Assembly (NCBI GenBank): GCA_017507005.1
Contig: JAFWBT010000007.1
Span: 23,682 to 87,681, forward strand
Source of the DNA: Clostridia bacterium
GTDB lineage: Bacteria > Bacillota > Clostridia > Christensenellales > Borkfalkiaceae
Direction of reading: 5' to 3'
DNA length: 64,000 nt
In this document: positions 1,236 through 54,438 of the stretch, one piece after another
How positions within the stretch are numbered: position 1 is the first letter of the stretch
How the letters are laid out: each line of letters opens with the position of its first letter
The notes under the pieces: generated by a model
What the model was told of the DNA's origin: nothing
Databases searched by the model: none
The model's input: only the letters and a program-made list of their open reading frames with translations
Translations under genes and position numbers: made by a program

Positions 1236-1926
1236 AAAAACGTTAAAAACTAAAAACGACGGGGGCAGGTATTCGCTGAAAGGCTCTTGGCTGTGGGGGG
1301 TATTGCTGTTCGTCGTGCTCGTTTTAATCGACCAGCTGACGAAAGTGGCGGCGGACGTATATTTCAACCGCCCGTCTGCGCCGAAAATGATAGCGATTAT
1401 CCCCGGCTGGATAAATCTTTGTATCAGCTACAATCCCGGCATAGCGTACGGGATAGGCTCGGACGCGTCGGCAGGGGTAAAGATTGCCGTGATTATCGGT
1501 ACGGCGTTGATGATGGCGGCGTTTGCGGTGCTGTATTTCAAGTTGGATAAGCGTCGCACGCTTATTCGTATCGCCATCGTGTTTGTCGTGGCAGGCGGCG
1601 TGGGCAATCTCATCGACAGAGTGTATTATCAGGTGTGGGATCCCAACGTAACGCAAGGCGTACGCGATATGGTGGATTTGAGCCGTTTTGGCTTTGCCGT
1701 ATGTAATTTTGCCGATTTCTTTATCACGGGCGGCGCGGTGACGCTGGTGTTGGCACTGTTGTTTTTTGACACGGACGCTATATTCCCGCTGACGGAAAAA
1801 TATAAGGCACTCGCAAAAGAAGCTAAGGAAAAGGAAGAAGTGAAAGAGCAGGAAAAGGCGAAGAATAAAGAGGCGGCAAAGGCCGCGGCGAGCGCGGAAA
1901 ATAACGCCGATAACGACAATGGATAA
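1228..1926 (+). CDS. lspA: Lipoprotein signal peptidase (signal peptidase II)
   Basis: Aspartyl membrane protease that removes the signal peptide from diacylglyceryl-modified prolipoproteins. Four hydrophobic segments are visible, with NPGIAYG near residue 69 and the catalytic pair D130 (GNLIDR) and D163 (CNFADF). At 232 residues it is longer than usual because of a Lys/Glu/Ala-rich cytoplasmic tail from about 190. Residues 10-19 (KNDGGRYSLK) are encoded by a copy of the dispersed 28-bp motif, so the N-terminal extension before the first membrane segment is probably not ancestral. It overlaps pncB by 8 bp and the next gene by 8 bp. Substrates in this window include the lipoproteins at 27.1 and 35.7 kb. 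Confidence 0.95.
   Translation: MTEKTLKTKNDGGRYSLKGSWLWGVLLFVVLVLIDQLTKVAADVYFNRPSAPKMIAIIPGWINLCISYNPGIAYGIGSDASAGVKIAVIIGTALMMAAFAVLYFKLDKRRTLIRIAIVFVVAGGVGNLIDRVYYQVWDPNVTQGVRDMVDLSRFGFAVCNFADFFITGGAVTLVLALLFFDTDAIFPLTEKYKALAKEAKEKEEVKEQEKAKNKEAAKAAASAENNADNDNG
1253..1280 (+). repeat. Dispersed 28-bp motif, copy 1 (inside lspA)
   Basis: Left arm AAAACG, centre ACGGGGGCAGG, degenerate right arm TATTCGCTGAA. It lies in frame in lspA and reads N-D-G-G-R-Y-S-L-K, the same frame used by the copy at 3824. Confidence 0.75.
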
Positions 1927-2878
1927 ACGGCTGTGGATTGCGGAGGAAAACAGCAAACGGCTGGACGTTTTTTTGAGTGAACAGCTGGAAGATTTTACCC
2001 GTTCGCGCTTGAAAAAGCTGATTGAAGAGGGGAACGTTTGTATCAATGGCAAGCCGACGGCGAAAGCAGGCGCGGAAATACGCGTGGGCGACGAAGTGAC
2101 GATTGTTATTCCCGATGCGGTGGAATACGCCGCAAAGCCCGAAAATATCCCCATTGATATCGTGTATCAGGACGCGGATTTTGCCGTGGTGAACAAACCG
2201 CAAGGTATGACGGTGCATATCGGCAGCGGCGTGTGCGAGGGTACGCTTGTCAACGCTTTACTGTACGCGTTGGATTCGCTCAGCGGTATTGGCGGCGTGT
2301 TGCGGCCGGGGATTGTGCACCGTATCGACAAGGACACGACGGGGCTGCTCGTCGTGGCGAAAAACGACAAAGCGCACGTTTCTTTGGCGAGTCAAATCGC
2401 GCAAAAAACGTGTAAACGTACCTATTACGCTTTGCTCGAAGGCAGCGTAAAAACGGATAGCGGCCGTATCGTAACGGATATCGGCAGACACCCGACGGAG
2501 CGGCTGAAAATGGCGGTGTTGCCCGACGGTCGTGGCAAAATCGCCGTCACCGATTATGAAGTGGTGGCACGCTTTGGACAAGAATTTACCCTTTGCAAGT
2601 TCGATTTGCAAACGGGCAGAACGCACCAAATTCGCGTGCACGCAAAGCATTTAGGACACCCCGTTGTGGGCGATCCCGTGTACGGCTATAAAAAGCAAAA
2701 ATTCCGTTTGAACGGTCAGCTACTGCACGCGTGGCAGCTGCGTTTAACGCACCCGACGACAGGGGAGGAAATGACGTTCAACGCGCCCCTGCCTACTGCG
2801 TTTTGTGAAATATTAGAAAAATTATGCAAACAATACGGCGTGGATAGAGCGTCGTTTTCGACACTTTTTAACGAATAA
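1919..2878 (+). CDS. RluD-family 23S rRNA pseudouridine synthase
   Basis: Isomerises uridines to pseudouridine in rRNA. An N-terminal S4-like RNA-binding segment (about residues 12-60) is followed by the RluA/RluD catalytic domain with HRIDKDTTG at 134-142; D137 is the catalytic aspartate. RTHQIRVH near 240 and the GDPVYG turn after it complete the family signature. The length (319) is normal. The ATG overlaps the lspA stop (ATGGATAA). lspA followed by an rluD-like gene is a common Bacillota arrangement (ylyB in Bacillus). The target uridines cannot be told from sequence. Confidence 0.93.
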   Translation: MDKRLWIAEENSKRLDVFLSEQLEDFTRSRLKKLIEEGNVCINGKPTAKAGAEIRVGDEVTIVIPDAVEYAAKPENIPIDIVYQDADFAVVNKPQGMTVHIGSGVCEGTLVNALLYALDSLSGIGGVLRPGIVHRIDKDTTGLLVVAKNDKAHVSLASQIAQKTCKRTYYALLEGSVKTDSGRIVTDIGRHPTERLKMAVLPDGRGKIAVTDYEVVARFGQEFTLCKFDLQTGRTHQIRVHAKHLGHPVVGDPVYGYKKQKFRLNGQLLHAWQLRLTHPTTGEEMTFNAPLPTAFCEILEKLCKQYGVDRASFSTLFNE

Positions 2879-2901
2879 AAAGGACTTTAAAAAAGAGTGG
2901 T

Positions 2902-4230
2902 ATGTTAAAGATTACGAAGGTAAAACGGAATAGCATCGCCAAGGAACTGGGCTTGGAGGTCGGGGACGAGATTATCGCCTTTGACGGCTATCCTTGCGAG
3001 GACGAGCTGGATTATCTGTACTACGTGGAAACGGACGGTTTTTCCATGACGGTGCGGGATAAGCGCGGCGCAGGCGAGATGACGGTGGAGGTGGAAAAGG
3101 ACGAGGGAGAAGACCTCGGCGTGGAGTTTGAAAAAAACACCGCGATTCGCACCTGCCATAATCGTTGCGTGTTTTGCTTTGTCGATCAAATGCCCAAGGG
3201 TATGCGCGAGAGTTTGTACGTTAAGGACGACGACTACGGTATGAGCTTTTCCTGCGGCAATTTCGTAACGCTCACCAACCTTTCCGACGAGGGCTTGGAA
3301 CGGATTATCCGTTTAAAACTCTCGCCGCTGTACGTATCCGTGCATACTATGAACGAAGAACTGCGCTGTAAGCTGTTGCGAAACCGTTTTGCGGGAAAAA
3401 TCGTAAGACAGATTGCGAGGCTGGTGGAAGGCGGCGTACAATTACATTGCCAAGCGGTAATCGTGCCGGGCGAAAACGACGGCAAAGAGCTGGAATATAC
3501 CGCAAGGGAGTTGTTTAAATATTATCCTAGCGTAAAAGAGTTGGCGTTCGTGCCGACGGGGCTTACCAAATATCGCGAGGGATTGACGCCCATACCCGAC
3601 GTGGATAAGGCGTACAGCGAGGAAATACTCGACCTTGCCGCGCGGCTGAATAAGGAATTTGGCGTGCCGTTTTTACAGCCTGCCGACGAATATTACATCA
3701 AGGCAGACCGTGCCTTGCCGCCCGAAGATTTCTACGGCGATTACGAGCAGATTGAAAACGGCGTGGGCATGACGACGCGGTTTTTGGCGGAGGCAAACGC
3801 GGCACTTTCGACGCTTATTTCAGAAAACGACGGGGGCAGGTACGCGTTGAAAAGCAAAAAACGCTCTGTTATCGTGTGCGGCGTCAGCGCAAAAAAGGTG
3901 ATGCAATCCCTGATAAATAGCTGTAACGAGGCGATAGAGGGCTTGGAGGCGATAACGCTTGCCGTAGAGAACGAGTTTTTTGGGCATACCGTTACGTGTA
4001 CGGGCTTGTTGACGGGGCAGGATATCCTTGCCGCGCTCGAAAAATACCGCCGCGAAGAGGGCGGATTTGACGAAGTGGTGCTTGCAGGCAACGTTTTAAA
4101 AGAATTTGAGGACGTGTTCTTGTGCGGTATGACGCTGAACGAGCTGAAAACGAAGCTGGGTTTTGAGAACGTGCGCGTCAATCGCGACGGTGGCTATGGG
4201 TTCGTGGAGATACTTTCGACGAACGAATAA
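2902..4230 (+). CDS. DUF512 radical-SAM-like Fe-S protein with PDZ domain
   Basis: Function unknown. Residues 1-70 look like a PDZ fold (GLEVGDEIIAFDG). A radical-SAM-type cluster motif follows, C85-x3-C89-x2-C92 in RTCHNRCVFCFVDQ, then the DUF512 C-terminal half. The family is widespread in Bacillota and is typically encoded next to der, as here (98 bp before der), which hints at a ribosome-linked role but does not prove one. Residues about 308-317 (NDGGRYALK) come from an in-frame copy of the 28-bp dispersed motif, placed between the catalytic half and the C-terminal domain. Confidence 0.88.
   Translation: MLKITKVKRNSIAKELGLEVGDEIIAFDGYPCEDELDYLYYVETDGFSMTVRDKRGAGEMTVEVEKDEGEDLGVEFEKNTAIRTCHNRCVFCFVDQMPKGMRESLYVKDDDYGMSFSCGNFVTLTNLSDEGLERIIRLKLSPLYVSVHTMNEELRCKLLRNRFAGKIVRQIARLVEGGVQLHCQAVIVPGENDGKELEYTARELFKYYPSVKELAFVPTGLTKYREGLTPIPDVDKAYSEEILDLAARLNKEFGVPFLQPADEYYIKADRALPPEDFYGDYEQIENGVGMTTRFLAEANAALSTLISENDGGRYALKSKKRSVIVCGVSAKKVMQSLINSCNEAIEGLEAITLAVENEFFGHTVTCTGLLTGQDILAALEKYRREEGGFDEVVLAGNVLKEFEDVFLCGMTLNELKTKLGFENVRVNRDGGYGFVEILSTNE
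3824..3851 (+). repeat. Dispersed 28-bp motif, copy 2 (inside DUF512 gene)
   Basis: Exact AAAACG and GTACGCGTTGAA arms with centre ACGGGGGCAG. In frame it reads N-D-G-G-R-Y-A-L-K. Confidence 0.85.
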
Positions 4231-5782: not shown

Positions 5783-6505
5783 ATGGAAACGTTTTATATT
5801 TCACAAGATTGGTGGCAATTTTTACTGCTGGCTATCGTATGCTATTTTATCGGCTGTTTTAATTTTGCGCGGCTCATTTCCCGCAAGAAAAACCGCGATA
5901 TCACGCAGGTGGGCAGTGGTAATCCCGGCACGATGAATATGACGCGTGAATTTGGGCTGAAAATCGGCTTTATCACGTTTTTGTGCGACGCGCTCAAAGG
6001 CGGCTTGCCAGCGGTTGTCAGCTATTTTCTCTATCGGAACAGCGTGTTCGCAGGCACGAGCTTGCTTGTTTCCGATTTCACGAGATATTTCGTGGGGCTG
6101 TGCGTCGTAATCGGGCATATTTTTCCCGTCACGATGAAATTCAAAGGCGGCAAGGGGATTGCCTCGACACTGGGTTTGTTTTGGATGTGCTTGGCGTGTG
6201 AAAATCCTTGGTGGCTGCTGTTTGGGTTTGGCTGTCTTTGTATCGTCGTTTTGTATATCTACACAGCGGAATGGGGCTCGATAGGCTCTCTTTTAGGGGT
6301 GTCGGGATTTAGCATTATTCAGCTGACGATATTTATATTGCGTTACGGGAAATACCCCGTGGACGCGTACATGGTAGCCCTGTATCTGATTATTTTTACC
6401 ATCAACGTACTCACGTGGGTGGCGCATCATAAAAATCTCGCGCGCGTGTTTGCAGGCGAAGAACACCGTACGTCTATTAAAAAATTAGCAAAAAAAAGTA
6501 AATAA
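5783..6505 (+). CDS. plsY: Acyl-phosphate:glycerol-3-phosphate acyltransferase
   Basis: Integral membrane enzyme that makes lysophosphatidate from acyl-phosphate and glycerol-3-phosphate, the first step of phospholipid synthesis in most Bacillota. It shows the three PlsY loops: GSGNPGTMN (44-52), the aspartate/lysine loop FLCDALKGG, and KGGKGIAS near 120. Membrane segments cover most of its 240 residues, and the tail is basic (KKLAKKSK). Its usual partner plsX is not in the window. Confidence 0.95.
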   Translation: METFYISQDWWQFLLLAIVCYFIGCFNFARLISRKKNRDITQVGSGNPGTMNMTREFGLKIGFITFLCDALKGGLPAVVSYFLYRNSVFAGTSLLVSDFTRYFVGLCVVIGHIFPVTMKFKGGKGIASTLGLFWMCLACENPWWLLFGFGCLCIVVLYIYTAEWGSIGSLLGVSGFSIIQLTIFILRYGKYPVDAYMVALYLIIFTINVLTWVAHHKNLARVFAGEEHRTSIKKLAKKSK

Positions 6506-9403: not shown

Positions 9404-9431
9404 TTCAACGCGTACACGGTATGCCCGTTTT
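9404..9431 (-). repeat. Dispersed 28-bp motif, copy 3
   Basis: Perfect arms on the minus strand with centre GGCATACCGT. It sits between the trkH stop and the GH95 gene, opposite in direction to both. Confidence 0.85.
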
Positions 9432-9477: not shown

Positions 9478-12069
9478 ATGGAAACTATGCAAAAGAGATA
9501 CGTATTGAAATATTTCACACCTACGGAGAATAGCGACGAGGGCTGGGAGAAATATTCCCTGCCGCTTGGCAACGGCTATTTCGGCGCGAGCGTGTTCGGT
9601 AGAACGGACGTAGAGCGTATACAGTTCGCTACGAATACGTTTGCGAACGTTAAATTGAATGGCGGCGTTTCTAATTTTGCGGAAATCCATATTGGGCTTT
9701 CGCACGAGAACGTGCAAGGCTATGAAAGGGGCTTAGAGCTTAGCGGCGGTTACGCCTACACCCGTTACAAGACGAGCGATAACGCGTGGGAAAGCCGCGC
9801 CTTTTTATCCTATCCCGACAGAGTGTTTGCGTATCGTATTAAGTCTTTGAACAAGGCGGATTTCGACGTGCGGCTCGTGATACCGTTTTTGGGCAGTCGC
9901 CCGATAGAAGAAGGCGGACGCACGGGCGAAGTTACCGTTTTTGAGAACAGCCTAGTAATGCGCGGAACGTTGCCTGCGAGAGAGCTGATATACGAGGGCA
10001 AGCTTGTCGTGGTATCGAACGGCGAAACGCTGCAAAAGGGCGAGGGCTTGCGTGTAAACGGCGCAACGGAAACAACGCTGTATTTCGTGGCGGGCACTTC
10101 GTACGAATTGACGGAAGAGGTCTTTTTGGACGGCTATCATAAGGCGCTGGGCAAAGATCCGCACGAAACGATTGAAAAAGATATGCAAAAAGCTTTGGCT
10201 TTGGGCTACGAGCGTTTGTTTGCAAGGCATCAAGAGGATTATTTAAGGCTGATGTCGCGCGTGGAATTCGACCTTGGCGGCGCAGAGGACGAGCGGAGTA
10301 CGGAGGCGCTGTTAAAGAGCAATCAAGAGGGGAATTTCGAGCCGTATTTGGAAGAATTGTATTATCAATACGGCAGGTATTTGTTGGTGTCGTCCTCGCG
10401 AAAGGGTACGACGCCTGCGTCCTTGCAGGGCGTTTGGAACGTGCACGATAAATCCCCTTGGGGCAGCGGTTTTTGGCACAATATCAACGTGCAAATGAAC
10501 TATTGGCCGGCGTTTAATACGAACCTCGCGGAAACGTTTAGCGCGTACGCAGAGTATAACGCGGCGTTCCGTAAACAGGCAGAGCGGCTCGCGTCCCAGT
10601 GGATACAAGAAAACGTACCCGAAAACTACGTAGAGGGGCAGGGCGAGTGCGGTTGGACGATAGGCACGATAGCCTATTGTTATGAAATCAGCAGTCCCAG
10701 CCTCCACTCAGGTCCAGGCACGGGCGGCTTGACGAGCAAGCTGTTTTGGGATTATTACGATTATACGAGGGATAGAGAAATCTTGGAAAAAGTGACCTAT
10801 CCTGCCATCCACGGTATGGCGAAATTTTTAACCAAGTGCGTGCGGGAGTACGACGGGGAGTATTTATCGGTATTTTCCGCTTCGCCCGAACAGATTATCG
10901 GTGGCGCTGGGGTGACGGGCAGACCGCAACCCTATTATCACACGATAGGTTGCGCGTTCGATCAGCAAATGCTGTACGAGAACGCCAAGGACGATTTGCA
11001 ATGCGCGAAACTTCTCGGTGTAAACGACGACGTGACGGCGTTGGAAGAAAAACAGATTTCTGCGTATAGCCCCGTTTTGATGGGGTATAGCGGACAGATA
11101 AAGGAATTTCGCGAGGAGCATTTTTACGGTGAGATAGGGGAGGCGAAACACCGCCATATTTCGCAGCTCGTTGCGCTCTCGCCCGGGACGCAAATCGGTG
11201 TTAGAACACCCGCTTGGCTGGATTCGGCGAAGAAAACGCTGGAAATGCGAGGGGACGAATCGACGGGCTGGGCTTTGGCGCACCGCTTGTGCGCGTGGGC
11301 GCGCGTGGGCGATGGCGATCACGCGTATTTGTTGTTGCAAAATCTTTTAAAAATGCGTACGCATCCAAACCTTTGGGACGTGCATCCGCCGTTCCAAATC
11401 GACGGCAACTTCGGCGCGTTGAACGGTATGACGGAAATGCTTCTGCAAAGCCACGAAAATTGTATTCATCTCATACCTGCCCTGCCCGTTTCGTGGAAAA
11501 ACGTCCGTTTTAAGGGCTTGAAAGCGCGTGGGAATTTCACGATTGCAGGCGAGGTGAAAGAGGGCGGTTTGACGCGCGTTCAGGTGTTTTCAGCCGTGGG
11601 CGGCGAGGCGCGTATTTGCTATAAAGGCGTGAAAAACGTCGTCGTGACGGACGAAAACGGTAAAAAAATAGCGGCGATTATAGAGGGCGATTTCTGCACG
11701 TTCGATACGGTGGCAGGGCAAACGTATACGCTCGTCGGCTTTGGCTGTAAAGCGAGTACGAAAAAGCCCGACGATTTTACGGCGAAGTATGAAGAAAACA
11801 GCATTGCGCTTGTTTGGAAAGGCTGTGGCGAGCGTTACGCCGTGTATCGCGCGGTGGACGACGACAGTGGGTATACGCTGCTTGGCTATACGAAAGAAAG
11901 CCGCTTTGAGGATACGGCGTTTAGCGCGCAAAAGAAAGGTCGTTTGACGTATAAAGTGACGGCTTTGAAAGGCGACGAGGAGAGCGAGGGTGCGCTCGCG
12001 TGGTTGCATCCTGCGGGGAAATGGGAAACGGAGCGCTATCCCTATCTTTTGCGACAGAACAATTTATGA
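9478..12069 (+). CDS. GH95 family glycoside hydrolase (probable alpha-L-fucosidase)
   Basis: Family GH95 enzymes are inverting exo-glycosidases that mainly release alpha-1,2-linked L-fucose; some act on L-galactose. Landmarks are the N-terminal LPLGNGYFGASVFG beta-sandwich signature, the catalytic NIN motif (335-337) in HNINVQMNYWP, LSPGTQIG, and the catalytic Asp in DGNFG (about residue 642). It is about 863 residues long with a Fn3-like C-terminal tail. No signal peptide is seen, so it probably acts inside the cell on imported oligosaccharides. ATG 9478 is chosen because GAGGTG lies 9 nt upstream; the GTG at 9466 is part of that ribosome site. Fucose isomerase at 19.9 kb supports a fucose role. 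Confidence 0.9.
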   Translation: METMQKRYVLKYFTPTENSDEGWEKYSLPLGNGYFGASVFGRTDVERIQFATNTFANVKLNGGVSNFAEIHIGLSHENVQGYERGLELSGGYAYTRYKTSDNAWESRAFLSYPDRVFAYRIKSLNKADFDVRLVIPFLGSRPIEEGGRTGEVTVFENSLVMRGTLPARELIYEGKLVVVSNGETLQKGEGLRVNGATETTLYFVAGTSYELTEEVFLDGYHKALGKDPHETIEKDMQKALALGYERLFARHQEDYLRLMSRVEFDLGGAEDERSTEALLKSNQEGNFEPYLEELYYQYGRYLLVSSSRKGTTPASLQGVWNVHDKSPWGSGFWHNINVQMNYWPAFNTNLAETFSAYAEYNAAFRKQAERLASQWIQENVPENYVEGQGECGWTIGTIAYCYEISSPSLHSGPGTGGLTSKLFWDYYDYTRDREILEKVTYPAIHGMAKFLTKCVREYDGEYLSVFSASPEQIIGGAGVTGRPQPYYHTIGCAFDQQMLYENAKDDLQCAKLLGVNDDVTALEEKQISAYSPVLMGYSGQIKEFREEHFYGEIGEAKHRHISQLVALSPGTQIGVRTPAWLDSAKKTLEMRGDESTGWALAHRLCAWARVGDGDHAYLLLQNLLKMRTHPNLWDVHPPFQIDGNFGALNGMTEMLLQSHENCIHLIPALPVSWKNVRFKGLKARGNFTIAGEVKEGGLTRVQVFSAVGGEARICYKGVKNVVVTDENGKKIAAIIEGDFCTFDTVAGQTYTLVGFGCKASTKKPDDFTAKYEENSIALVWKGCGERYAVYRAVDDDSGYTLLGYTKESRFEDTAFSAQKKGRLTYKVTALKGDEESEGALAWLHPAGKWETERYPYLLRQNNL

Positions 12070-17757: not shown

Positions 17758-17828
17758 TTCAACTCGTACCTGCCTCTATCCAATGAATACGTCGTTATAA
17801 TTCAACGCGTACATGGGTGTGGGGTTTG
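17758..17828 (-). repeat. Dispersed 28-bp motif, copies 4 and 5 (tandem pair)
   Basis: Two minus-strand copies, 17758-17785 (right arm GTACGAGTTGAA, centre ATAGAGGCAG) and 17801-17828 (right arm GTACGCGTTGAA, left arm degenerate), 15 bp apart, in the gap after the pgm stop. Confidence 0.75.
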
Positions 17829-19627: not shown

Positions 19628-19655
19628 AAAAAGCAGGGAGCATGTACGCGTTGAA
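19628..19655 (+). repeat. Dispersed 28-bp motif, copy 6
   Basis: Left arm AAAAAG, perfect right arm GTACGCGTTGAA. It lies between the divergent pgm and fucI promoters. It creates the spurious M-Y-A-L-N start of a longer fucI frame, which I reject. Confidence 0.8.
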
Positions 19656-23704: not shown

Positions 23705-24445
23705 TTACTTTTCAGGAACGTAAGGGAAAGCAGGAATAGGCTTTAATTTAAACTCGTTCAGCGTATGCAAACGGTCGATTTTGGCTTTCTTTTCCGCGTC
23801 TTCACAAACGCCCGTGCGGATATATTCGTCCAGCATAGCGTAGGTAAAACCAAGATTATCTTCATCCGTCCGATCGGTCAATCCGTCGGACGGTACTTTT
23901 TCTACGAGGTCGATAGGCAGTTGGAGATGCTTGCCGATTTCTTTCACTTCGCGTACGGTCAACTGTCCAAGTGGCGCAAAATCGCCTGCCGCGTCGCCGT
24001 AACGGGTGGAATAGCCCACCCAGTCCTCGGAAAGATTGCAGGTGTTTGCCACGCGTCCGTTCATCGATTGCGAAAGGGCATAAAGCGTGGACATACGGAT
24101 ACGCGGAGGGAGATTTACCCGCGTTTGACGGCTGATATCCAGCCCCGCTTTTTCGAGGGAATCGAGTACGCCGTCCACCGCTTTTTTGATGTTGCAAACG
24201 TAATTCGGGATACCCAGGTACGCGACGAGCCGTTTTGCACAGTCGATATCGGGCTGTTCGCCGTTTGGCATTAAAACGCCGATAACGCGGTCTTTCCCCA
24301 ACGCTTTTACACACAGCGCGGCGACGATACTCGAATCCTTGCCGCCTGAAATCCCAACGACGGCGTTGCAGCCTTTGCCGTTGGCGTCAAACCAATCCCG
24401 TATCCATTGTACGACGTTTTCCGTCGTTTTTTCTACGTTGAACAT
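23705..24445 (-). CDS. nadE: NAD synthase (ammonia-dependent type)
   Basis: Amidates nicotinate adenine dinucleotide to NAD, the last step of the pathway started by pncB. It carries the ATP-pyrophosphatase P-loop SGGKDSS (33-39) and a conserved substrate stretch (VANTCNLSEDWVGYSTRYGD). It is about 246 residues with no glutaminase domain, so ammonia is the likely direct donor, which makes the glutamine synthetase next door a notable neighbour. The start at 24445 (MFNVEK) is supported by GGAGG 8 nt upstream; the longer frame to 24562 runs into the glnN end and is rejected. Confidence 0.93.
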   Translation of the reverse strand: MFNVEKTTENVVQWIRDWFDANGKGCNAVVGISGGKDSSIVAALCVKALGKDRVIGVLMPNGEQPDIDCAKRLVAYLGIPNYVCNIKKAVDGVLDSLEKAGLDISRQTRVNLPPRIRMSTLYALSQSMNGRVANTCNLSEDWVGYSTRYGDAAGDFAPLGQLTVREVKEIGKHLQLPIDLVEKVPSDGLTDRTDEDNLGFTYAMLDEYIRTGVCEDAEKKAKIDRLHTLNEFKLKPIPAFPYVPEK

Positions 24446-29685: not shown

Positions 29686-29713
29686 TTCGTCGCGTACACG
29701 GTATGCCCGTTTT
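29686..29713 (-). repeat. Dispersed 28-bp motif, copy 7
   Basis: Left arm and centre as copy 3; right arm GTACGCGACGAA. It lies between the radical SAM gene and the DUF4130 gene, in their direction. Confidence 0.8.
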
Positions 29714-31094: not shown

Positions 31095-31153
31095 ATAACG
31101 ATAGGGGCAGGTATGCGTTGAATAAAAAACGGGCGTACCAGGTACGCGTTGAA
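31095..31153 (+). repeat. Dispersed 28-bp motif, copies 8 and 9 (tandem pair)
   Basis: 31095-31122 (centre ATAGGGGCAG, right arm GTATGCGTTGAA) and 31126-31153 (perfect arms, centre GGCGTACCAG), 3 bp apart, just after the pnuC stop and pointing against it. Confidence 0.85.
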
Positions 31154-37971: not shown

Positions 37972-39180
37972 ATGTTACGGTTTGCTTTAAAGAATATGGC
38001 GATTAAGAAAATACAAAATATTTTAATCGTATTATCTATTGTTATTTCTGCGGGGATTGCGGTACTTGCCTATAACGTCGCAAATCAAGTTAGCGATGGA
38101 ATTACCAAAGGTGCTAGCTATTATTCTGTGATTATTGGTCCATCGGGAAGCCAAACACAACTCGCTATGAACACAATGTATTTCACGGATGAACCTTTAG
38201 GAACTATTCCTTATTCGGTGGTAACAGATTTAATGCAGGATGGAACGAAGGTAAAATCGGTGGTTCCGTTTGCGATGGCTGATAATTATAACGGCTATAA
38301 CGTAGTAGGAACAACGACGGATTTTTTGAAGGAAAAAACGGTGAAAGAAGGTACCATGTACGAGGATAATGAGATTTTGCAGGCGGTTGTTGGACATAAC
38401 GTAGCAAAATATAACCGTTTGAAAGTGGGGGATATTATCCATACTGGACATTCGATAAACAGCGCGGAATTACACGCGGAAGGGATTACGGTCGTGGGGA
38501 TATTGGAAGAAAGCCATTCTGCATACGATAATATCGTTTTTACACAACTGCGAACGTTATGGCATATGCACGAACATACCGAAGACGACGCCCATGAAAC
38601 TGAGGAGGGGCATGAACACGGTAGCGGCACTGTTTGCGCGGTTTTGGTGAATGCAAAAAATCCTGCCTATGCGATGCAACTTGTCAGTGAATATGATGGA
38701 AAAATCATTACGGCGGAAGATGGAGATGTGTTTACGTTGCAAGCAATCGAGCCAATGGATATCGTGCGTGACATTTTAAACGAAGCGGACGATACGCAAT
38801 ATATCGTATTTATTTTATGCGGTGTGATTTTGCTAATGAATATTATGATTATATCGATTATTACGCTGTTGAATATGTATCATTCCGCGAAGGAAATTTC
38901 CTTAATGCGTTTGATAGGTATTAGTATGAAGAAGATAAATCTATTATATATTATTCAAAACGGGATAATCGGTTTTATTTCCACGTTGTTGGCGTTTGGA
39001 TTATCAAAAATATGTTTATTGCTTATGAATAATTACGTTGCGAGTATGGGCGTGGTGTTGAATATGGGTATGGTCTATCCTATGGAATTCGTCATTTTAT
39101 TGGCGGTATTTCTAATTAGCGTTATTCCGACTGCCATTTGGACGTTCTGTATGTCGAGAAAAGACGGGGTTAGGGATTAA
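37972..39180 (+). CDS. FtsX-type ABC permease with His-rich extracellular loop
   Basis: A 402-residue permease with one N-terminal and three C-terminal membrane segments around a large outside domain, the MacB/FtsX layout. The outside domain holds a His/Asp/Glu cluster at about 197-218 (MHEHTEDDAHETEEGHEHG) followed by a Cys, a likely metal-binding loop as in zinc transporters. It begins immediately after the ATPase stop. Together with the lipoprotein-like partner downstream it looks like a metal-handling transporter. Confidence 0.85.
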   Translation: MLRFALKNMAIKKIQNILIVLSIVISAGIAVLAYNVANQVSDGITKGASYYSVIIGPSGSQTQLAMNTMYFTDEPLGTIPYSVVTDLMQDGTKVKSVVPFAMADNYNGYNVVGTTTDFLKEKTVKEGTMYEDNEILQAVVGHNVAKYNRLKVGDIIHTGHSINSAELHAEGITVVGILEESHSAYDNIVFTQLRTLWHMHEHTEDDAHETEEGHEHGSGTVCAVLVNAKNPAYAMQLVSEYDGKIITAEDGDVFTLQAIEPMDIVRDILNEADDTQYIVFILCGVILLMNIMIISIITLLNMYHSAKEISLMRLIGISMKKINLLYIIQNGIIGFISTLLAFGLSKICLLLMNNYVASMGVVLNMGMVYPMEFVILLAVFLISVIPTAIWTFCMSRKDGVRD

Positions 39181-40655: not shown

Positions 40656-42395
40656 TTATGCGTTCGGCTTGTAACAGTTGCACGCCGCGCCGCTCGGTAA
40701 AAAGCCCGTATCCGAGCATTTTCCGCATACGAATTGCGGCGTCAGCTCCGTTTCTTTTATCCCCATTTCCGACAAAATCGTTTTTCGTTCCGCCAAAAGG
40801 CTCTGCTTTTGTTGCGTCAGGGCAGGGAGCGTTGTCGGCTCGAACACTTCCGCTTTTGCCAAGGCGATTTCCATTTTGGAAAGCTCCGTCGTAATCTCCT
40901 TAAACCGCGTGTTTGCGTTCGCTTTTGCGATAAATTTTTCCGCGCGCGTTTGCGCCTTTTCGCGAAGTAGCGAATAGTAACGTTCTCTGTCCGATTTGGC
41001 GTTTACCGCCTCGATGGCGGGGTTGGTATACCCACGCGAATTTTGGCTTGAACTCGTACCTGCCCCCGTCGTTTTGTTTTCGGGGATATCGTTCAACGCG
41101 TACACGCCCCCTTGTTTCCAGTCGGAGAGGATTTTGTTCATATAGGGGATAGGGTTCGCGCTCGTCGCGCTGCGTTTTGCCGCTTCTAATATCATTTCGT
41201 CGGAGAATTTCCAGTCTCTCCACGTCTTGATTAAGCACAAATTCACCGCCGTCTTTTTCATCGTGCCGCAAATTTCTTGAATTTTCGTGAACAGCTTTAA
41301 TTCGTCGTTCTTTTCCTTTAAAAATTCCTTTACGCCCTCTTTCGTTACGACGCCGTCGGCAAACAGCTTTTCCAGCAGCGTGTTCATAGACGCAAAATCT
41401 CCACGCGACGTTTTCATACAAAAGAGCGCGACGTCCAAAAGGGAGCTTTCTTCAAAACCGCACGTATACCATTTTTCGGTGTATTCGTCGATATAGGGGG
41501 CAGGATTGGGGATTTTTACACCCAGTTTTCTGCCGATACGGAAGGTGAGGTTTGCCAGCATTTCGCGGTCTGCCAAATACGCGTCGATTTCGCTCGCTTC
41601 CATTTTACCCTTTTCCGCCAGTTCGTCCAACGTCAAATCCAACGCGTTCATCGAGCCGCGTTTTAAACGTTTCGCCGTAGCCAAAACTCCGTCCTTCGCA
41701 AAACCCATTTCCGCCCATTTTTTATACAGCGCGTAGTCGCTCTCGTCGGGCGAACGCTGGAAAATAGACAGCGCGGTGAATACCGCCGACAGGTCGTTTT
41801 CGTGCGCGTTATAGGACGAGAGTTCTTTTTCTACCTGCTCGTACGTTGTGATACCGCTACGCATCAGCTTTTTCGCTTTGTTGAAAATATACGAAGGGGA
41901 AATCGCCTCGCCCTGCTTGTTGATGCAATATTCCGCAATCAGCAAAAACGCCTGCGGCTGCATATTGTTCTCTTCCAAAAAGTGCATATATTTGACGTAA
42001 TCGCCCGAGGAAACGAATTTGCCCACCCGTTGCATTTTACGTTGCAGCTCTTTGTTGAAATCGGTATACTGCTCGTAATGCACGCGTTTGGGCTTGCCCA
42101 CAGCCGCCTTAACGGGCAGATATTGCACGGTAAACGGCTCACGCGAGAGGATTTCTACAAGGTCGTAATCCTGCCAAAACTCGAACGCGTCCGAGATTTT
42201 TTCCTCGGTCGTTTTTAATACTTCCGCCATGGACGAAATGCTGAATTCAAAGCTGTTGTTTTGGCACAAATACAAGCCGTAAAGATATACTTTTACGGCA
42301 AACCCGTCCGCTTCGGGCAGATATTTGGTGACGAATTTGTTTTCAATCAGCGTATAGGTGTTGTCAACGTCTTTGGAAAAAGTGCAAAACGCCAT
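40656..42395 (-). CDS. DnaD-domain replication protein with C-terminal zinc motif
   Basis: A 579-residue protein with an N-terminal DnaD/DnaB winged-helix region (to about 130), two or more DnaB_2-like helical repeats (about 200-400), and a C-terminal coiled coil ending in CGKCSDTGFLPSGAACNC, the Zn motif usually seen at the N terminus of DnaC/DnaI helicase loaders. Such proteins help load the replicative helicase (dnaB at 54.5 kb). The linker near residues 425-450 is built from two copies of the 28-bp motif. No DnaC ATPase is adjacent, so the Zn motif may be a fusion remnant or a real interaction module. Confidence 0.8.
   Translation of the reverse strand: MAFCTFSKDVDNTYTLIENKFVTKYLPEADGFAVKVYLYGLYLCQNNSFEFSISSMAEVLKTTEEKISDAFEFWQDYDLVEILSREPFTVQYLPVKAAVGKPKRVHYEQYTDFNKELQRKMQRVGKFVSSGDYVKYMHFLEENNMQPQAFLLIAEYCINKQGEAISPSYIFNKAKKLMRSGITTYEQVEKELSSYNAHENDLSAVFTALSIFQRSPDESDYALYKKWAEMGFAKDGVLATAKRLKRGSMNALDLTLDELAEKGKMEASEIDAYLADREMLANLTFRIGRKLGVKIPNPAPYIDEYTEKWYTCGFEESSLLDVALFCMKTSRGDFASMNTLLEKLFADGVVTKEGVKEFLKEKNDELKLFTKIQEICGTMKKTAVNLCLIKTWRDWKFSDEMILEAAKRSATSANPIPYMNKILSDWKQGGVYALNDIPENKTTGAGTSSSQNSRGYTNPAIEAVNAKSDRERYYSLLREKAQTRAEKFIAKANANTRFKEITTELSKMEIALAKAEVFEPTTLPALTQQKQSLLAERKTILSEMGIKETELTPQFVCGKCSDTGFLPSGAACNCYKPNA
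41048..41119 (-). repeat. Dispersed 28-bp motif, copies 10 and 11 (inside the DnaD-like gene)
   Basis: 41092-41119 reads G-G-V-Y-A-L-N in frame. 41048-41075 has exact AAAACG with centre ACGGGGGCAG but is read in another frame (T-T-G-A-G-T-S-S). They lie 16 bp apart in an inter-domain linker. Confidence 0.8.
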
Positions 42396-42631: not shown

Positions 42632-43795
42632 GTGAAGATATTGCATACGTCCGATTGGCATATCGGCAAACGCCTGATGGGGCGCGAACGCCTTGACGAG
42701 CAGGCGGAGGTGCTCGACGAGATTGCCGCCGTGTGCGAAAGAGAGAATATCGAGCTAGTGTTGCTCGCAGGCGACGTTTTCGATACGTATACGCCGAGCG
42801 CGGAAGCGGAGGATTTGTTTTTTACAAAAATCAAACGTATCGCAGGCGGTGAGCGCGCCGTTTTAATCATCAGCGGCAACCACGACGACGGGGTACGGCT
42901 TTCCGCCGTTGCGCCGCTGTCCGAAGAACAGGGGATTTATATCGTCGGGAACGCCCGTAATGCGTTAAAGGTTACCAAGGACGGGTATAGGAAAACCCAC
43001 CCGATTGCGTCGGGAAAAGGCTACGTCGTTTTTGAAAACGAACGTGGTGAAAAAGCGTTCATCTCAACCCTGCCCTATCCCAACGAGGCAAGATTTAAAG
43101 AAGAAAAGAGTGAATTGCCCTACGTCGAGCAGATGAAAAAATGGATAGACGAGGGGGAGAGCGGCAACGTAGAGGGTTTGCCGTCGGTGTTTATGGCACA
43201 CCTGTTCGTGGCAGGCGGCAGTGTATCGGAGGGCGAACGCGAAATCGATTTAGGCGGCGCGCGCGCAATCCCCGTAGACGCCCTGCCTCACAGCAATTAT
43301 ATCGCGCTTGGGCATTTGCATAAAAAACAACATATGGGCAAGGGGGATTGCTATTACAGCGGTTCGCCGTTGCAATATTCCTTTGACGAGAGCGCGGATA
43401 AGGGCGTGAAAGTGTTCGACCTTACGAGCGAGGGCGTGCGTGATTTAAAAGATGTACCGCTGACGAAAGGCAAGCGTTTGGTACGACTAGAAGCGGTGAC
43501 CGTCGAGGACGCGTTGACGCTGCTCGATAGATATGAAAACGAGCTAGTGGAATTGCGTATCGTGCTGTCTGCACCGCTGACGACGTCGGACGCGCAGGCA
43601 CTCGCCGCCAAACGAAATCTCGTATCGCTGATTCCTGAAATCCGTACGGAAGAGAGTGTTCACTTCCACTCCCGAAAAGGCTTGTCGGACGAAGCGTTGT
43701 TTACGGCGTACTACCGCACGGCGTACGATAGCGAGCCGAAACAAGAGCTGAAAGAGCTGTTTTTAAAAACGCTCGCAGAGATACAAGAAAAATAA
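42632..43795 (+). CDS. sbcD: Exonuclease subunit SbcD (Mre11 homologue)
   Basis: Metallophosphoesterase nuclease that with SbcC opens hairpins and trims DNA ends. It has HTSDWHIG (5-12), GDVFDTY, SGNHDDG and GHLH, the Mre11 metal-ligand motifs. The GTG at 42632 is chosen since GGAGGAG lies 7-8 nt before it and homologues start MKILHTSDWH; the longer frame lacks a ribosome site. It has 387 residues, normal for SbcD. sbcC follows after 64 bp. Confidence 0.93.
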   Translation: MKILHTSDWHIGKRLMGRERLDEQAEVLDEIAAVCERENIELVLLAGDVFDTYTPSAEAEDLFFTKIKRIAGGERAVLIISGNHDDGVRLSAVAPLSEEQGIYIVGNARNALKVTKDGYRKTHPIASGKGYVVFENERGEKAFISTLPYPNEARFKEEKSELPYVEQMKKWIDEGESGNVEGLPSVFMAHLFVAGGSVSEGEREIDLGGARAIPVDALPHSNYIALGHLHKKQHMGKGDCYYSGSPLQYSFDESADKGVKVFDLTSEGVRDLKDVPLTKGKRLVRLEAVTVEDALTLLDRYENELVELRIVLSAPLTTSDAQALAAKRNLVSLIPEIRTEESVHFHSRKGLSDEALFTAYYRTAYDSEPKQELKELFLKTLAEIQEK

Positions 43796-48254: not shown

Positions 48255-48282
48255 AAAAGGTGGGCACCATGTACGAGACGAA
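48255..48282 (+). repeat. Dispersed 28-bp motif, copy 12 (over the DUF951 start)
   Basis: Left arm AAAAGG, centre TGGGCACCAT, right arm GTACGAGACGAA. The motif itself carries the ribosome site (AAGGTGG) and the ATG of the gene. Confidence 0.7.
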
Positions 48283-48466
48283 TACGCTGTTGACGTTAAA
48301 AAAGCCACATCCCTGCGGTGGAGTGCAATGGAAAGTGGTGCGCGTTGGCGCGGATATCAAGGTGCAGTGCCTCACCTGTGGGAAATACGTCAATTTGACG
48401 CGCGACGAATTGAAAAAACGAGTGAAATCGTCGCAAAATCCGTCGGACGGCGGTGTGGGAGAATAA
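48269..48466 (+). CDS. DUF951 family small protein
   Basis: A 65-residue protein with [18 protein letters not shown] and [11 protein letters not shown], the DUF951 signature with Cys residues that likely bind zinc. The family is conserved in Bacillota and of unknown function, often near ychF or parB genes. Its first residues M-Y-E-T-N are specified by the 28-bp motif. lepB starts 4 bp after its stop. Confidence 0.88.
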
Positions 48467-50034: not shown

Positions 50035-50697
50035 ATGATGACTTCCGTTTATAACGACGCCGATTTGTTGTCGGTGTATAAGCAGAGAAAGAAAACGTTG
50101 GGGGTGTTTTGGGCGGTGACGCTCGTATACGCCGCGTTTTGTATCGCTTGGCTGATATATCATATATCCTTGCCGTACGGCTCGTCTATGGATATCCTGC
50201 CGAAAATTATGGTGTACGTAGTGACGGCATTGTACGTAATATTTATTTTTCCGTTTATGGGTATACGATTCAGCCGTGTAAACCGTTATTATAAGGCACT
50301 GGTGAATTTTTCCGAGGGCTTGAAAAGCGAAGAAAAGAACTATTTTTATTGCTTTGAAAAACACAGCCTGCAAAAGGATAATATCGACGTCACCTATTGC
50401 GTTTTTGAATCGTGGAGCAAAAAACGTAAAGAGTGGATGGACCGCGAAGTGTATTTTGACGTAGAAAAACCCTTGCCTGATTTTGGCAGCGGCGACCACG
50501 TTTTGTACGTAACGCAGAGCAACTTTATTCTTCAATACGACGTATTAGAACGCGGCGTTTTCGAGTTTGAAGAGGTAGACGACGAAGAAGAATACGAAGA
50601 GCTTAGCGAAAAAGCGGCGGAAGAAACGGAACAACGCTTGTCGGAAACGGTGGATAGCGAAGAAACGAAAACCGCAGAAGAAACGGAAAACGAATAA
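50035..50697 (+). CDS. Two-segment membrane protein, acidic tail
   Basis: Not recognised. It has 220 residues, with two membrane segments (about 23-42 and 57-77), a soluble domain of alternating strands (SLQKDNIDVTYCVFESW), and a very acidic Glu-rich tail after 185. It follows degV by 33 bp and is probably co-transcribed. Confidence 0.65.
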   Translation: MMTSVYNDADLLSVYKQRKKTLGVFWAVTLVYAAFCIAWLIYHISLPYGSSMDILPKIMVYVVTALYVIFIFPFMGIRFSRVNRYYKALVNFSEGLKSEEKNYFYCFEKHSLQKDNIDVTYCVFESWSKKRKEWMDREVYFDVEKPLPDFGSGDHVLYVTQSNFILQYDVLERGVFEFEEVDDEEEYEELSEKAAEETEQRLSETVDSEETKTAEETENE

Positions 50698-50708
50698 GAT
50701 AAAAAATG

Positions 50709-50736
50709 AAAACGGGGCTACCGTGTACGCGTTGAA
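50709..50736 (+). repeat. Dispersed 28-bp motif, copy 13
   Basis: Perfect arms, centre GGGCTACCGT. It ends 69 bp before the ACT-domain gene start. Confidence 0.9.
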
Positions 50737-50805
50737 AGGTGCGCGGCGGCAATAAAATAATACAATAAAAGAGAATAGAATAAAGAACTTTTAAGGAGAA
50801 ATAGT

Positions 50806-51075
50806 ATGAGAGCAGTCGTCACCGTAACGGGTAAAGACAAAAAAGGTATCATTGCAAAGGTCAGCGCGTTTTTGGCGGAAAAGGGTGTAAATATCGAAGA
50901 CATTTCGCAGACGATTTTGGGCGAATATTTCGCTATGATTATGATTGTGGATATGAGCGAGGCGAAAAAAGAGCTTTCCACGTTGGCGCAAGAGGCGGCG
51001 GAGCTGGGCAAGCAGATTGGTATGTCCATTTATATCCAGCACGAAGACATTTTCAACGCAATGCACAACGTATAA
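50806..51075 (+). CDS. ACT domain protein (UPF0237)
   Basis: An 89-residue single ACT domain (MRAVVTVTGKDKKGIIAKVSAFLAE), a small-molecule, usually amino-acid, sensor. It is consistently paired with the DUF711 gene that follows after 42 bp; the two are thought to act together, but no reaction is known. AAGGAG site before the ATG. Confidence 0.92.
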   Translation: MRAVVTVTGKDKKGIIAKVSAFLAEKGVNIEDISQTILGEYFAMIMIVDMSEAKKELSTLAQEAAELGKQIGMSIYIQHEDIFNAMHNV

Positions 51076-52530: not shown

Positions 52531-52558
52531 TAAACGGGGGTACCATGTACGAGTTTAA
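52531..52558 (+). repeat. Dispersed 28-bp motif, copy 14
   Basis: Left arm TAAACG, centre GGGGTACCAT, right arm GTACGAGTTTAA. It ends 27 bp before the pepF start. Confidence 0.8.
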
Positions 52559-52585: not shown

Positions 52586-54364
52586 ATGGAAAGAAATGAA
52601 ATACCTCAGAATTTGAAATGGAACGTAGCGGACATTTTTGCGAGCGACGAGGACTGGGAAAAGGAATATAAGGCAGTCGAGGCGGCGTATTCCGATTACG
52701 ATTTTACTCCCTATAAAGGCAAGCTGGGCGACAAAAAAGTATTGTTGCAGTGCTTTGAATTGAGCGACACCATTTCCCGTAAGATTGAAAAAGTGTATAT
52801 TTACGCGCATTTGCGTCACGACGAGGATTTGCGTATCGGCAAATATACTTCTGCGTATGCAATGGTAGGCGGCTTGATTTCCAAAATCTTCGCGCAGCTT
52901 TCTTTCGTGGAGCCGGAACTCACCGCGCTTTCGGACGAAACGTTGCAGGGCTTTATCAACGATCCTGATTTTGCACCCTATGAATATCGTTTGCGTAAAA
53001 TTATGGCAGGCAAGGCGCACGTGCTTAGCGAGGCGGAAGAAAAACTGCTGACGCTTGGCGGCGACGTAATGCGCGGTTTCCAAGGCGTGTTCACGATGCT
53101 CGCGAACGCAAATCTCAATCTTCCCAAGGCAATGCTCGGCGGCGAAGAAGTGCAGATGAGCCACGGCTTATACGGCGTAGCGTTGCATACGGGTAACGCA
53201 GAGGAAAGAAAGGAATGGTTTAAAAAATATTACAGCGCGTATATCAATTTGATTGATTCGATTACGCAAACCTATTACAACAACGTTAAAAAGGACGTTT
53301 TCTATAAGACGGTGAGAAAATACGACAGCTGTATGGCAAGAGCCATGGACGGCGAGGACGTAGATATCGCGGTGTATAACAACCTGATTGAAGCGGTGCA
53401 CGCGGCTTTGCCCATTATGCACGAATATATCTCTATACGTAAAGAAGTGACGGGGCTGGAAGAACAGCATATGTACGATATTTACGTGCCTCTTGTCGAG
53501 GACGCCGATATCAAAATGCCGTTCGATGAAGCGTACGAGCTGGTAATCGAAGGTCTTGCGCCGCTCGGCGAAGACTATCAAAACCTTTTGAGAAAGGGTA
53601 GAAACGAGGGCTGGATTGACGTTTGTGAAAACGAAGGCAAGCGTAGCGGCGCGTATTCGTCGGGCGTGTTCGATACTCACCCGTACGTATTGTTGAATTA
53701 TCAGCAGACGACCAACGATATTTTCACGGTGGCGCACGAAATGGGACACGCGTTGCACACCTACAAATCCAACGCAACACAGCCGTATGCAAAGGCGGAT
53801 TATACCATTTTCCTTGCGGAAATCGCCAGCACTGTTAACGAAGTACTCCTTTTAAAGCATCTCTATAAAAAGACGGACGATAAGAATTTGAAGAAATATC
53901 TTTTGAATTATTATATGGATATGATTCGCGCGACGATGTTCCGTCAAACGCAGTTTGCAGAGTTTGAACAAATCGCGCACGCAAAGGCGGAGGCAGGCGA
54001 GCCGTTGACGAAGGAAAACCTCAACGCCGTATACTATCAGCTGAACAAAGATTATTACGGCGACGGCATTATTCACGACGAGGAGATTGCGTATGAATGG
54101 GCGCGTATCCCGCATTTCTATACGTCTTTCTACGTTTACAAATATGCAACGGGTATCATTTCCGCGATTTCTATCGTGAAGCGTATCCTTGCCGAGGGCG
54201 AGAGTGCGGTGAACGAATACTTTGCATTCCTTTCCTCGGGCGGCTGTACCGATCCCGTCAGCATCCTGAAAAAGGCAGGCGTCGATTTGACGACGAAAGC
54301 GCCTTTCGAGGCTGCTATGCAGGAATTTAAGGATACCTTGGAAGAATTTAAGAGCCTGCTGTAA
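52586..54364 (+). CDS. pepF: Oligoendopeptidase F (M3 family)
   Basis: Cytoplasmic zinc metallopeptidase that cuts oligopeptides. HEMGH at 384-388 and the downstream Glu in FLAEIASTVNE supply the metal ligands. YSSGVFDTHPYVLLNY and IPHFYTSFYVYKYATG are family marks. The length (592) is typical. Confidence 0.95.
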   Translation: MERNEIPQNLKWNVADIFASDEDWEKEYKAVEAAYSDYDFTPYKGKLGDKKVLLQCFELSDTISRKIEKVYIYAHLRHDEDLRIGKYTSAYAMVGGLISKIFAQLSFVEPELTALSDETLQGFINDPDFAPYEYRLRKIMAGKAHVLSEAEEKLLTLGGDVMRGFQGVFTMLANANLNLPKAMLGGEEVQMSHGLYGVALHTGNAEERKEWFKKYYSAYINLIDSITQTYYNNVKKDVFYKTVRKYDSCMARAMDGEDVDIAVYNNLIEAVHAALPIMHEYISIRKEVTGLEEQHMYDIYVPLVEDADIKMPFDEAYELVIEGLAPLGEDYQNLLRKGRNEGWIDVCENEGKRSGAYSSGVFDTHPYVLLNYQQTTNDIFTVAHEMGHALHTYKSNATQPYAKADYTIFLAEIASTVNEVLLLKHLYKKTDDKNLKKYLLNYYMDMIRATMFRQTQFAEFEQIAHAKAEAGEPLTKENLNAVYYQLNKDYYGDGIIHDEEIAYEWARIPHFYTSFYVYKYATGIISAISIVKRILAEGESAVNEYFAFLSSGGCTDPVSILKKAGVDLTTKAPFEAAMQEFKDTLEEFKSLL

Positions 54365-54410
54365 GGTTTTAAAAAAGCGGATTCAAAAATTCTAATATTT
54401 AGAAAAACAT

Positions 54411-54438
54411 AAAACGAGATACCCATGTACGCGTTGAA
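54411..54438 (+). repeat. Dispersed 28-bp motif, copy 15
   Basis: Perfect arms, centre AGATACCCAT. It ends 33 bp before the dnaB start. Confidence 0.9.

Follow-up and report, generated by a model that had tools for sequence, protein, structure and literature searches.

A short motif of about 28 bp is concentrated in one genus of uncultured gut Clostridia, where its copies, numbering in the hundreds, are unevenly distributed along the chromosome and, in the four species compared, are embedded in phased A/T flanks. We tentatively propose, as a reading with nearly as much for it as against it, that the motif may be a DNA-level site for a protein that bends DNA and organises the chromosome, and that its layout, depleted in one domain, resembles that of the Noc and SlmA sites.

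Definition of the motif and its copies in the window

The window, i.e. the whole stretch of 64,000 nucleotides analysed here, had been predicted to contain at least 15 dispersed copies of a 28-mer, and each of these is present at the predicted position and on the predicted strand. Their number holds as a minimum but is too low: a profile search returned 26 places with at least 14 bits and 24 with at least 16 bits, all 15 original copies among them. The pattern AAAACGN7CNKGTACGCGTTGAA, with up to three mismatches allowed, matches the window 13 times (12 of the 15 predicted copies and a new one at 2777); in the shuffled control suggested by the original prediction, 100 shuffles gave a mean of 0.05 matches and a maximum of 1. 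The three copies that fail this pattern (17758, 41092 and 48255) have profile scores of 27.7 to 29.2 bits.

When the profile was scanned over 437 kb of DNA from the same genome, hereafter the source genome, it gave 180 matches of at least 16 bits, with none in reversed sequence and about two in shuffled DNA; the 20 stretches picked around exact 12-mers bias this density upwards, and ten further stretches from contigs or gaps devoid of exact 12-mers gave 13 matches in 108 kb, a density biased downwards. Throughout the whole assembly the exact 12-mer GTACGCGTTGAA has 78 matches and its reversed pattern none, and a 15-mer with up to two mismatches has 296 matches and 5 reversed ones. Chance origin of the motif is ruled out by these shuffled and reversed controls. 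A search of open-licence PMC text brought up the 12-mer in one unrelated mouse paper. The predicted division into two centre types is real, as 399 copies pooled from five genomes comprise 226 of GGGGC type, 154 of xACC type and 19 unassigned. The extent of 28 bp describes the core well, but the element often continues with CG and possesses a far longer phased A/T flank.

Copies of GGGGC type in the window are located near the 5' end of the lipoprotein signal peptidase gene (Pfam Peptidase_A8; 1253..1280, plus strand, 29.0 bits), within the DUF512 radical-SAM gene (3824..3851, plus, 37.8 bits) and at 31095..31122 (plus, 28.4 bits), the last lying 31 bp from an intergenic copy of xACC type (31126..31153, plus, 36.6 bits). 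Further xACC copies are intergenic at 9404..9431 (minus, 36.5 bits) and 29686..29713 (minus, 30.5 bits), or lie 11 bp past a stop codon (50709..50736, plus, 36.5 bits). The xACC copy at 48255..48282 (plus, 27.7 bits) overlaps a called ORF (48260-48466) and is perhaps intergenic, because this ORF is short and low-scoring. A convergent intergenic region carries one more xACC copy (17801..17828, minus, 28.5 bits) with a neighbour 43 bp away (17758..17785, minus, 27.9 bits), and the DnaB_2-domain gene (Pfam DnaB_2) holds two copies 44 bp apart (41048..41075, minus, 31.7 bits; 41092..41119, minus, 29.2 bits). The remaining predicted copies lie in the intergenic region ahead of the L-fucose isomerase gene (19628..19655, plus, 36.3 bits), upstream of the peptidase M3 gene (52531..52558, plus, 31.8 bits) and between this gene and the dnaB helicase gene (54411..54438, plus, 34.6 bits).

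Extra coding copies were found at 2777..2804 (minus, 26.7 bits, the pattern match mentioned above), 56799..56826 (minus, 24.2 bits), 57506..57533 (plus, 25.7 bits) and within the glycoside hydrolase family 95 gene (11465..11492, minus, 29.1 bits). A weaker one lies at 6359..6386 (minus, 24.8 bits), and weak coding copies lie at 24202..24229 (plus, 20.4 bits), 38342..38369 (plus, 17.5 bits) and 43058..43085 (minus, 16.4 bits). Another weak copy (62524..62551, minus, 18.6 bits) belongs to a stretch 99.4% identical with genome G005.

Same-strand pairs 28-65 bp apart are found mainly in the source genome; at distances below 150 bp there are none in G015 and G009 and two in G011.

Phased A/T flanks and comparison with gyrase sites

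On both sides of the core, A/T peaks recur about every 11.7 bp over approximately 180 bp; when 117 isolated copies of the source genome are averaged, the outermost peaks lie at -75 and +104. The amplitude in these copies is 0.146/0.156, compared with null maxima of 0.052/0.047, and 299 AAAACG control sites have flank amplitudes of 0.011/0.010. The phase is identical in the source genome, G015, G011 and G009, and the periodicity, with a period of 11.5-11.7 bp, is present both in 124 coding copies and in 73 intergenic ones, taken together from four relatives. Background DNA is periodic in A/T as well, though more weakly and at 10.5-11.5 bp. The symmetry axis of the flanks is determined only modulo half a period. 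Around the copy at 50709, taken as an example, the flanks would cover 50634..50813 (no strand assigned), the pattern being an average over copies. The test of helical spacing is no proof of periodicity by itself, because one cluster, at 31-32 bp, supplies most of its signal.

Long phased flanks raise the possibility, which we regard as unlikely, that the motif is a strong DNA gyrase site: gyrase would bind or cleave the core and wrap the flanks, and the sites would place gyrase where positive supercoils arise. According to PMC6379681, the E. coli gyrase motif is symmetric, measures about 130 bp and has flanks that are periodic in GC, and the sites of cleavage follow an ori-ter gradient. What the two have in common is the long footprint and the A/T-G/C periodicity to either side of a core. 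Gene gaps point in the same direction, since convergent ones are favoured over divergent ones (41 copies in 23.6 kb and 12 in 26.4 kb, respectively; p 1e-5, clustered copies being counted singly), and members of the GyrA/ParC family are present in 56 of 57 genomes. However, the family also occurs in G003, G024 and G054, genomes with 0-2 copies of the motif each, and the flank period of 11.5-11.9 bp falls outside the 10-11 bp that PMC12324340 gives for other gyrases. Gyrase cores are degenerate and palindromic, whereas the core here is strict and asymmetric, with 26-30 bits, and the published pattern -4G/-2A/+1G/+4C/+6T/+8C matches, by eye, only half of it with either centre tried. Pairs 31-44 bp apart would be too close for separate wrapped gyrases. 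Moreover, the motif is limited to one genus and its near-zero density in one chromosomal domain is sharper than a gradient. Inspection of the 57 genomes by eye revealed no extra topoisomerase that tracks copy number.

Origin of the copies and conservation at the DNA level

Copies within genes originate mostly by substitution, as the testable ones are mostly free of gaps: 39 of the 44 assessable coding copies of the source genome lie in gap-free protein alignments. The test covers coding copies, 40 of the 84 being without usable alignment. The conserved protein stretch at copy 11465, for instance, is gap-free, and the relative L031 has a weaker form of the motif there; for copy 2777, 18 of the 21 aligned relatives have, at some point within the alignment, a match of at least 16 bits. 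The gap-free alignments of the 39 copies rule out that coding copies arose chiefly by transposition.

REP and BIME elements are dispersed short repeats. The motif resembles them in this respect and differs in having no palindromic core and mostly no insertion signature in genes. A tiny mobile repeat had been suggested for the motif; such a repeat, of REP/MITE type and spreading by transposition, appears highly improbable. Comparison of orthologous loci, proposed as its test, did reveal presence and absence in intergenic slots, the occupied ones being often about 30 bp longer by eye, but coding copies are mostly devoid of an insertion signature. Within the window, the slot at 52531 is occupied in some relatives too, and that at 54411 is occupied, weakened or empty. 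The DUF512 copy sits at a loop of variable length, and 18 of the 23 gapped alignments come from this single copy. Neighbouring copies are unlike in centre type, which is also difficult to reconcile with a mobile repeat. Two 18-19-mers have no exact match among the viral contigs of IMG/VR, and a phage-borne element is ruled out on this ground.

The original prediction held that ordinary protein conservation would speak against a special role of the motif. In the DUF512 gene it is the codons themselves that are kept: codon identity is 0.881 at the motif and 0.525 elsewhere in the gene among 11 species chosen for bearing the motif (L209, with 16.8 bits, was left out). AGG accounts for 4% of the Arg codons of the source genome. 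The motif scores at least 16 bits in 12 of the 26 valid rows of this comparison, the source genome included; four of 30 rows (L191, L200, L201 and L208, wrong ORF) were left out. In this one gene the motif is therefore conserved at the DNA level.

Orientation and gene context

Called genes contain 84 of the 180 copies of the source genome, and intergenic DNA is enriched. Over five genomes, 146 coding copies are oriented with the gene and 65 against it; between co-directional genes the corresponding numbers are 86 and 40. An RNA element, another of the roles first suggested, is not supported, because copies occur both with and against genes. An Rfam search of the window at gathering thresholds detected one tmRNA and two tRNAs and no described family at the motif, which rules out a described RNA family. 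A regulatory site, or part of a terminator, shared by a large regulon is very unlikely as well. The intergenic enrichment and the hairpins that some copies form, by eye, with downstream sequence would fit it; nearly half of the copies in the source genome are nevertheless located in called genes, in both orientations, and clusters of the motif adjoin unrelated genes (names judged by eye).

Distribution among species and along the chromosome

Copy density ranges from 0 to 107 per Mb across species, a series along which such a system could be followed as it arises and decays. Genomes G033, G022 and G004 have few copies though they are members of the dense clade, and the motif system is therefore dispensable. 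A GyrA tree covers 30 of the 57 genomes, and seven other genomes with at least 40 copies per Mb lie outside it; a clustering test on this tree, limited to high versus intermediate densities, gave no signal (266 of 500 shuffles as low).

Uneven distribution along the chromosome is most evident in G009, where 40 matches fall in 115 kb around dnaN, the origin region. The largest contig of this genome, C1, has 44 matches in 220 kb and 2 in its outer 140 kb (p 1e-10, with zones drawn post hoc and the segment at 140-160 kb, with 3 matches, left out). Motif-rich stretches of the source genome have 24 orthologs on this contig, none of them in the outer 140 kb. The stretch of source contig C17 that matches the empty part of G009 has no match in 12 kb; this emptiness is not independent, because the choice of the stretch was confined to contigs lacking the exact 12-mer. 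Emptiness was then predicted and checked on new DNA: the 12 kb around a second gyrA-like gene contain no match in each of G015, G011, G036 and G014, whereas other stretches (copy-rich contigs in the case of G011) lead one to expect 3.2-3.3 per 12 kb in the first three of these genomes. No match was found in 60 kb of G052. G009 has an empty domain, and in four or five other species the surroundings of the second gyrA-like gene are empty too. That this domain is terminus-proximal is suggested, for G009, by gene direction and by a fall in GC skew, as far as the incomplete assemblies allow.

G015 shows no clear fall of density over about 330 kb from the skew flip. Its GC-poor stretches are also poor in copies, so that in this genome base composition or recent acquisition may account for some of the unevenness. 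GC content of the predicted empty stretches is 0.40-0.43 in three of four and 0.44 in the fourth; the empty parts of G009 and G052 are ordinary in this respect, with 0.45-0.51.

The density of the motif, its restriction to one genus, its mostly substitutional origin within genes and its intergenic enrichment are also what a DNA uptake signal spread by biased uptake and recombination would produce, like USS of Pasteurellaceae or DUS of Neisseriaceae, which are likewise abundant, clade-specific and present in genes and gaps. Flanks of the H. influenzae USS are AT-rich according to PMC7811141, nine opposite-strand pairs of the motif overlap at 21-22 bp, and ComEC (PF03772) is present in all 57 genomes. 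We nonetheless judge an uptake signal improbable. The search for uptake machinery covered T2SSE and ComEC in 57 incomplete assemblies, and the pilus/secretion ATPase T2SSE, representing the type IV pilus-type machinery of USS/DUS systems, exceeds 400 bits in three genomes and the cut-off in four; weak matches (E <=0.001) occur in 30 genomes and none in the source genome, although the dense genome G011 does carry T2SSE. Copy-free stretches hold genes common to several species, whereas PMC7811141 presents USS as relatively even in spread, and the motif differs further in its phased flanks on both sides over some 180 bp.

A possible site of a chromosome-organising protein

Binding of the motif by a nucleoid or regulatory protein, which the original prediction also offered as a role, gains indirect support from the phased flanks, the DUF512 codons, the occurrence in both orientations and the zoning, but a search for the binding protein produced no candidate. 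In the chromosome-organising reading that we prefer, a single protein would bind the motif and bend or wrap DNA. It would read the asymmetric core, with two centres allowed, and the DNA would bend or wrap along helically phased A/T tracts on either side, about 180 bp altogether. Sites would be spread over much of the chromosome and scarce in one domain away from the origin; they would mark the arms and the DNA on the side of the origin, in the manner of the Noc and SlmA sites. A role in chromosome organisation or nucleoid occlusion is suggested by this layout, and may concern nucleoid organisation or the timing of division.

PMC4726725 describes the Noc sites (NBS, Bacillus) and SlmA sites (SBS, E. 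coli) as dispersed, sequence-specific and underrepresented in Ter; the motif resembles them in being depleted from one domain, putatively the terminus-proximal one. Sites of this class are bound by ParB- or TetR-family proteins, and the bound factor delays division. They are palindromic and number about 70 and 24-52, respectively; the motif is asymmetric, two-typed, A/T-phased and far commoner. No site family compared here combines a strict core with a long bend-phased flank. A search for NBS-like sites gave a single match, with two mismatches, in four genomes totalling 1.9 Mb. Sites similar to parS (up to two mismatches) number 0 in 545 kb of the source genome, 3 in 570 kb of G015, 1 in 615 kb of G009 and 1 in 176 kb of G011.

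A bolder version, which we consider rather doubtful, is a lineage-specific chromosome-address system of several hundred nucleosome-sized wrapping sites standing in for nucleoid occlusion. Its protein-bound sites would have arisen by point mutation, both inside genes and in the gaps between them, would mark all but the far domain, and would have expanded within one genus having a single unusual ParB-family protein. If true, Bacillota would possess a dense code for chromosome marking that expanded recently. The ParB family has one strong match per genome in 54 of the 57 genomes and none in three. The G009 member scores 90 bits with the Noc model, below its cut-off of 315, and 59.6 bits with parB_part, just above the cut-off of 58.45.

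Occurrence and spread of the motif

The 28-bp motif with conserved arms and variable centre is a real, genus-specific chromosomal DNA motif. The 15 copies listed in the original prediction are correctly placed in the window (own genome, contig C28, 23682-87681; assembly of 1.56 Mb, 71% complete), and a genome-built profile recovers all of them. The two centre types it described are likewise real, GGGGC being found in 226 and xACC in 154 of 399 pooled copies. Scanning beyond the window, over 437 kb composed of the window and 20 own stretches picked around exact 12-mers of the motif, gave 180 places of at least 16 bits, against 0 in the reversed control and about 2 in Markov shuffles. Ten more own stretches, drawn from contigs or gaps in which the exact 12-mer is absent, contained 13 matches in 108 kb. 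The consensus is approximately AAAA[C/T]G-xx-centre-C[A/G][T/G]-GTACGCG[T/A][T/C]GAA-CG. No earlier report of the motif was found in the literature searched, namely open-licence PMC text. Judged by a single gene of the window, the closest named records are Clostridia assemblies from the ruminant gut.

A degenerate 15-mer of the motif has 167 matches in the own genome and 0-2 per genome in 295 genomes of the order's other genera, 21 of them belonging to the same family. Within the genus it is present in 56 of 57 genomes, ranging from 0 to 167 matches. In a GyrA tree covering 30 of these 57, all 10 genomes with at least 40 matches per Mb fall into one well-supported clade of 16, and a separate clade of 7 genomes has 0 to 9 per Mb. 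A shuffle test on this tree, with the dense group set only against the middling group, revealed no clustering. Three species (G033, G022 and G004) placed inside or adjoining the dense group have few copies; in G022, two orthologous motif places look decayed by eye.

Origin of individual copies

Comparison with relatives was possible for 44 of the 84 coding copies, and in 39 of these 44 the motif window is gap-free in every alignment. Gaps at the motif window occur in 23 of 190 alignments (mean of flank windows, 16), and a single copy, in the DUF512 gene, accounts for 18 of the 23. For one copy, in a GH95 gene, a relative's locus, L031, shows a weaker version within the same stretch, which aligns without gaps. 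Coding copies have thus arisen mainly by substitution.

The DUF512 gene bears the motif in 12 of 26 valid rows. Among 11 motif-bearing rows, codon identity where the amino acids agree is 0.881 for the six motif codons against 0.525 for 329 other columns; since the rows were selected for bearing the motif, this test shows that the match is made by codons and not by residues alone. Per-codon identity is lowest for Tyr, at 0.47, and reaches 1.0 at four codons; all 11 rows use AGG, a codon that makes up 4% of those for Arg in the own genome. In the region of the peptidase M3 gene before dnaB, 16 of 30 loci contain a match of at least 15 bits; in 15 of these it lies just beyond the gene, and the centre type varies between loci.

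Among gaps between genes in five species, copies are commonest in convergent ones: they number 41 in 23.6 kb of convergent, 126 in 125 kb of co-directional and 12 in 26.4 kb of divergent gaps. By eye, some copies (L112, L118 and L158 at 10385) are followed by complementary sequence that could form hairpins, one of them with a terminator-like T-run.

A separate observation concerns window positions 62151-64000, which match 1269-3117 of L177 (contig C1 of relative G005) over 1850 bp with 99.4% identity; two compared proteins of these genomes are 75-77% identical. This is a recent transfer or a shared mobile stretch. Two features fall within it: the gene of an Imp-YgjV-like membrane protein, at 62335-62943, and a portion of an ORF that has no Pfam match.

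Phased flanks

The A/T fraction oscillates with a period of 11.8-11.9 bp on both sides of the motif, as measured around 117 isolated copies of the own genome. Peaks lie at -6, -17, -29, -40, -53, -64 and -75 to the left of the 30-mer start and, counted from the same start, at 34, 44, 57, 70, 82, 92 and 104 to the right. The amplitude, near 0.15 over the first 60 bp, falls to about 0.056 at up to 120-150 bp (null maximum 0.040), with no oscillation beyond that distance around these copies; control AAAACG sites elsewhere reach only 0.01. The own genome and three relatives (G015, G011 and G009) share the phase to within roughly a quarter of a base, and the pattern is seen in both coding and intergenic copies when four relatives are pooled. 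Away from the motif (384 kb), the own genome has a weaker A/T autocorrelation with a period of 11.5 bp when all of this DNA is taken together, 11.3 within genes and 10.5 between them. In the own genome, 24 same-strand neighbours lie 28 to 65 bp apart, chiefly 31-32 and 42-44. A spacing test yields a period of 10.85 that none of 2000 uniform draws equalled in strength, the 31-32 cluster supplying much of the signal. This close spacing has no counterpart in G015 or G009.

Such phased flanks suggest DNA bending or wrapping. The strongest rival reading is a gyrase site, because the gyrase motif has periodic flanks too (PMC6379681, PMC12324340 and PMC12393610); the present motif does not match it in flank period, core strictness or symmetry. 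We consider the motif probably related to nucleoid-organising sites with a putative reader protein, which would read the core and bend the flanks, and whose sites would label a portion of the chromosome. In layout the copies are similar to Noc and SlmA sites, which PMC4726725 describes as underrepresented in Ter.

ParB-family protein

Exactly one strong ParB-family match is present in 54 of the 57 genus genomes and none in the other 3. In G009 the gene (L300, 7052-7888; further loci L333-L344) follows an FtsH-like gene. Its product scores best with the Noc model, far below that cut-off, and barely exceeds the cut-off of the general parB_part domain model. In sequence, the usual GxRR-type arginine patch of the CTP-binding motif looks altered or missing. 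ParB-family proteins bind palindromes; parS-like sites are rare. Own contig C13 carries the own ParB-family gene and 41 profile matches in 71 kb.

Zoning along the chromosome

The exact 12-mer is unevenly spread over those contigs of the own genome whose length is known; with 66 of its 78 matches entered, a Monte Carlo test gives p 0.0035. In G009, contig C11 carries dnaN, jag and a GC-skew flip and is therefore the likely site of the origin; it has 40 matches in 115 kb read. Contig C1 has 44 matches on its high side (220 kb read), 3 at 140-160 kb and 2 in the low 140 kb, where genes are mostly on the minus strand and skew drops toward zero at the contig end, as expected for the terminus side.

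A second gyrA-like gene sits on this low side, and the prediction that its surroundings are motif-free was borne out with 0 matches in 12 kb each in G015, G011, G036 and G014 (expected 3.2-3.3 per 12 kb in the first three). There are 0 matches in 20 kb in G052, examined before the prediction, and a single 15-bit match in 20 kb in G009. Surroundings of the first gyrA contain 1 to 7 matches in 12 to 20 kb in six species. All 24 orthologs of own motif-rich stretches found on G009 C1 fall outside its low 140 kb, and own contig C17, without 12-mers, matches the low part, with 0 in 12 kb; as motif content guided the choice of both sets, they agree with zoning without testing it on their own.

In G015, copies show no clear drop over a distance of roughly 330 kb starting at the skew flip. 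A stretch of its contig C2 (230001-310000, L306-L309) has a GC content of 0.38-0.47, in a contig mostly near 0.47, and 6 motif copies in 80 kb; it is perhaps an acquired region. The second gyrA/gyrB-like pair of G015 (L327, 4324-9130) lies in a motif-free stretch and scores below the equivalog cut-offs for gyrase and topoisomerase IV but above the subfamily ones.
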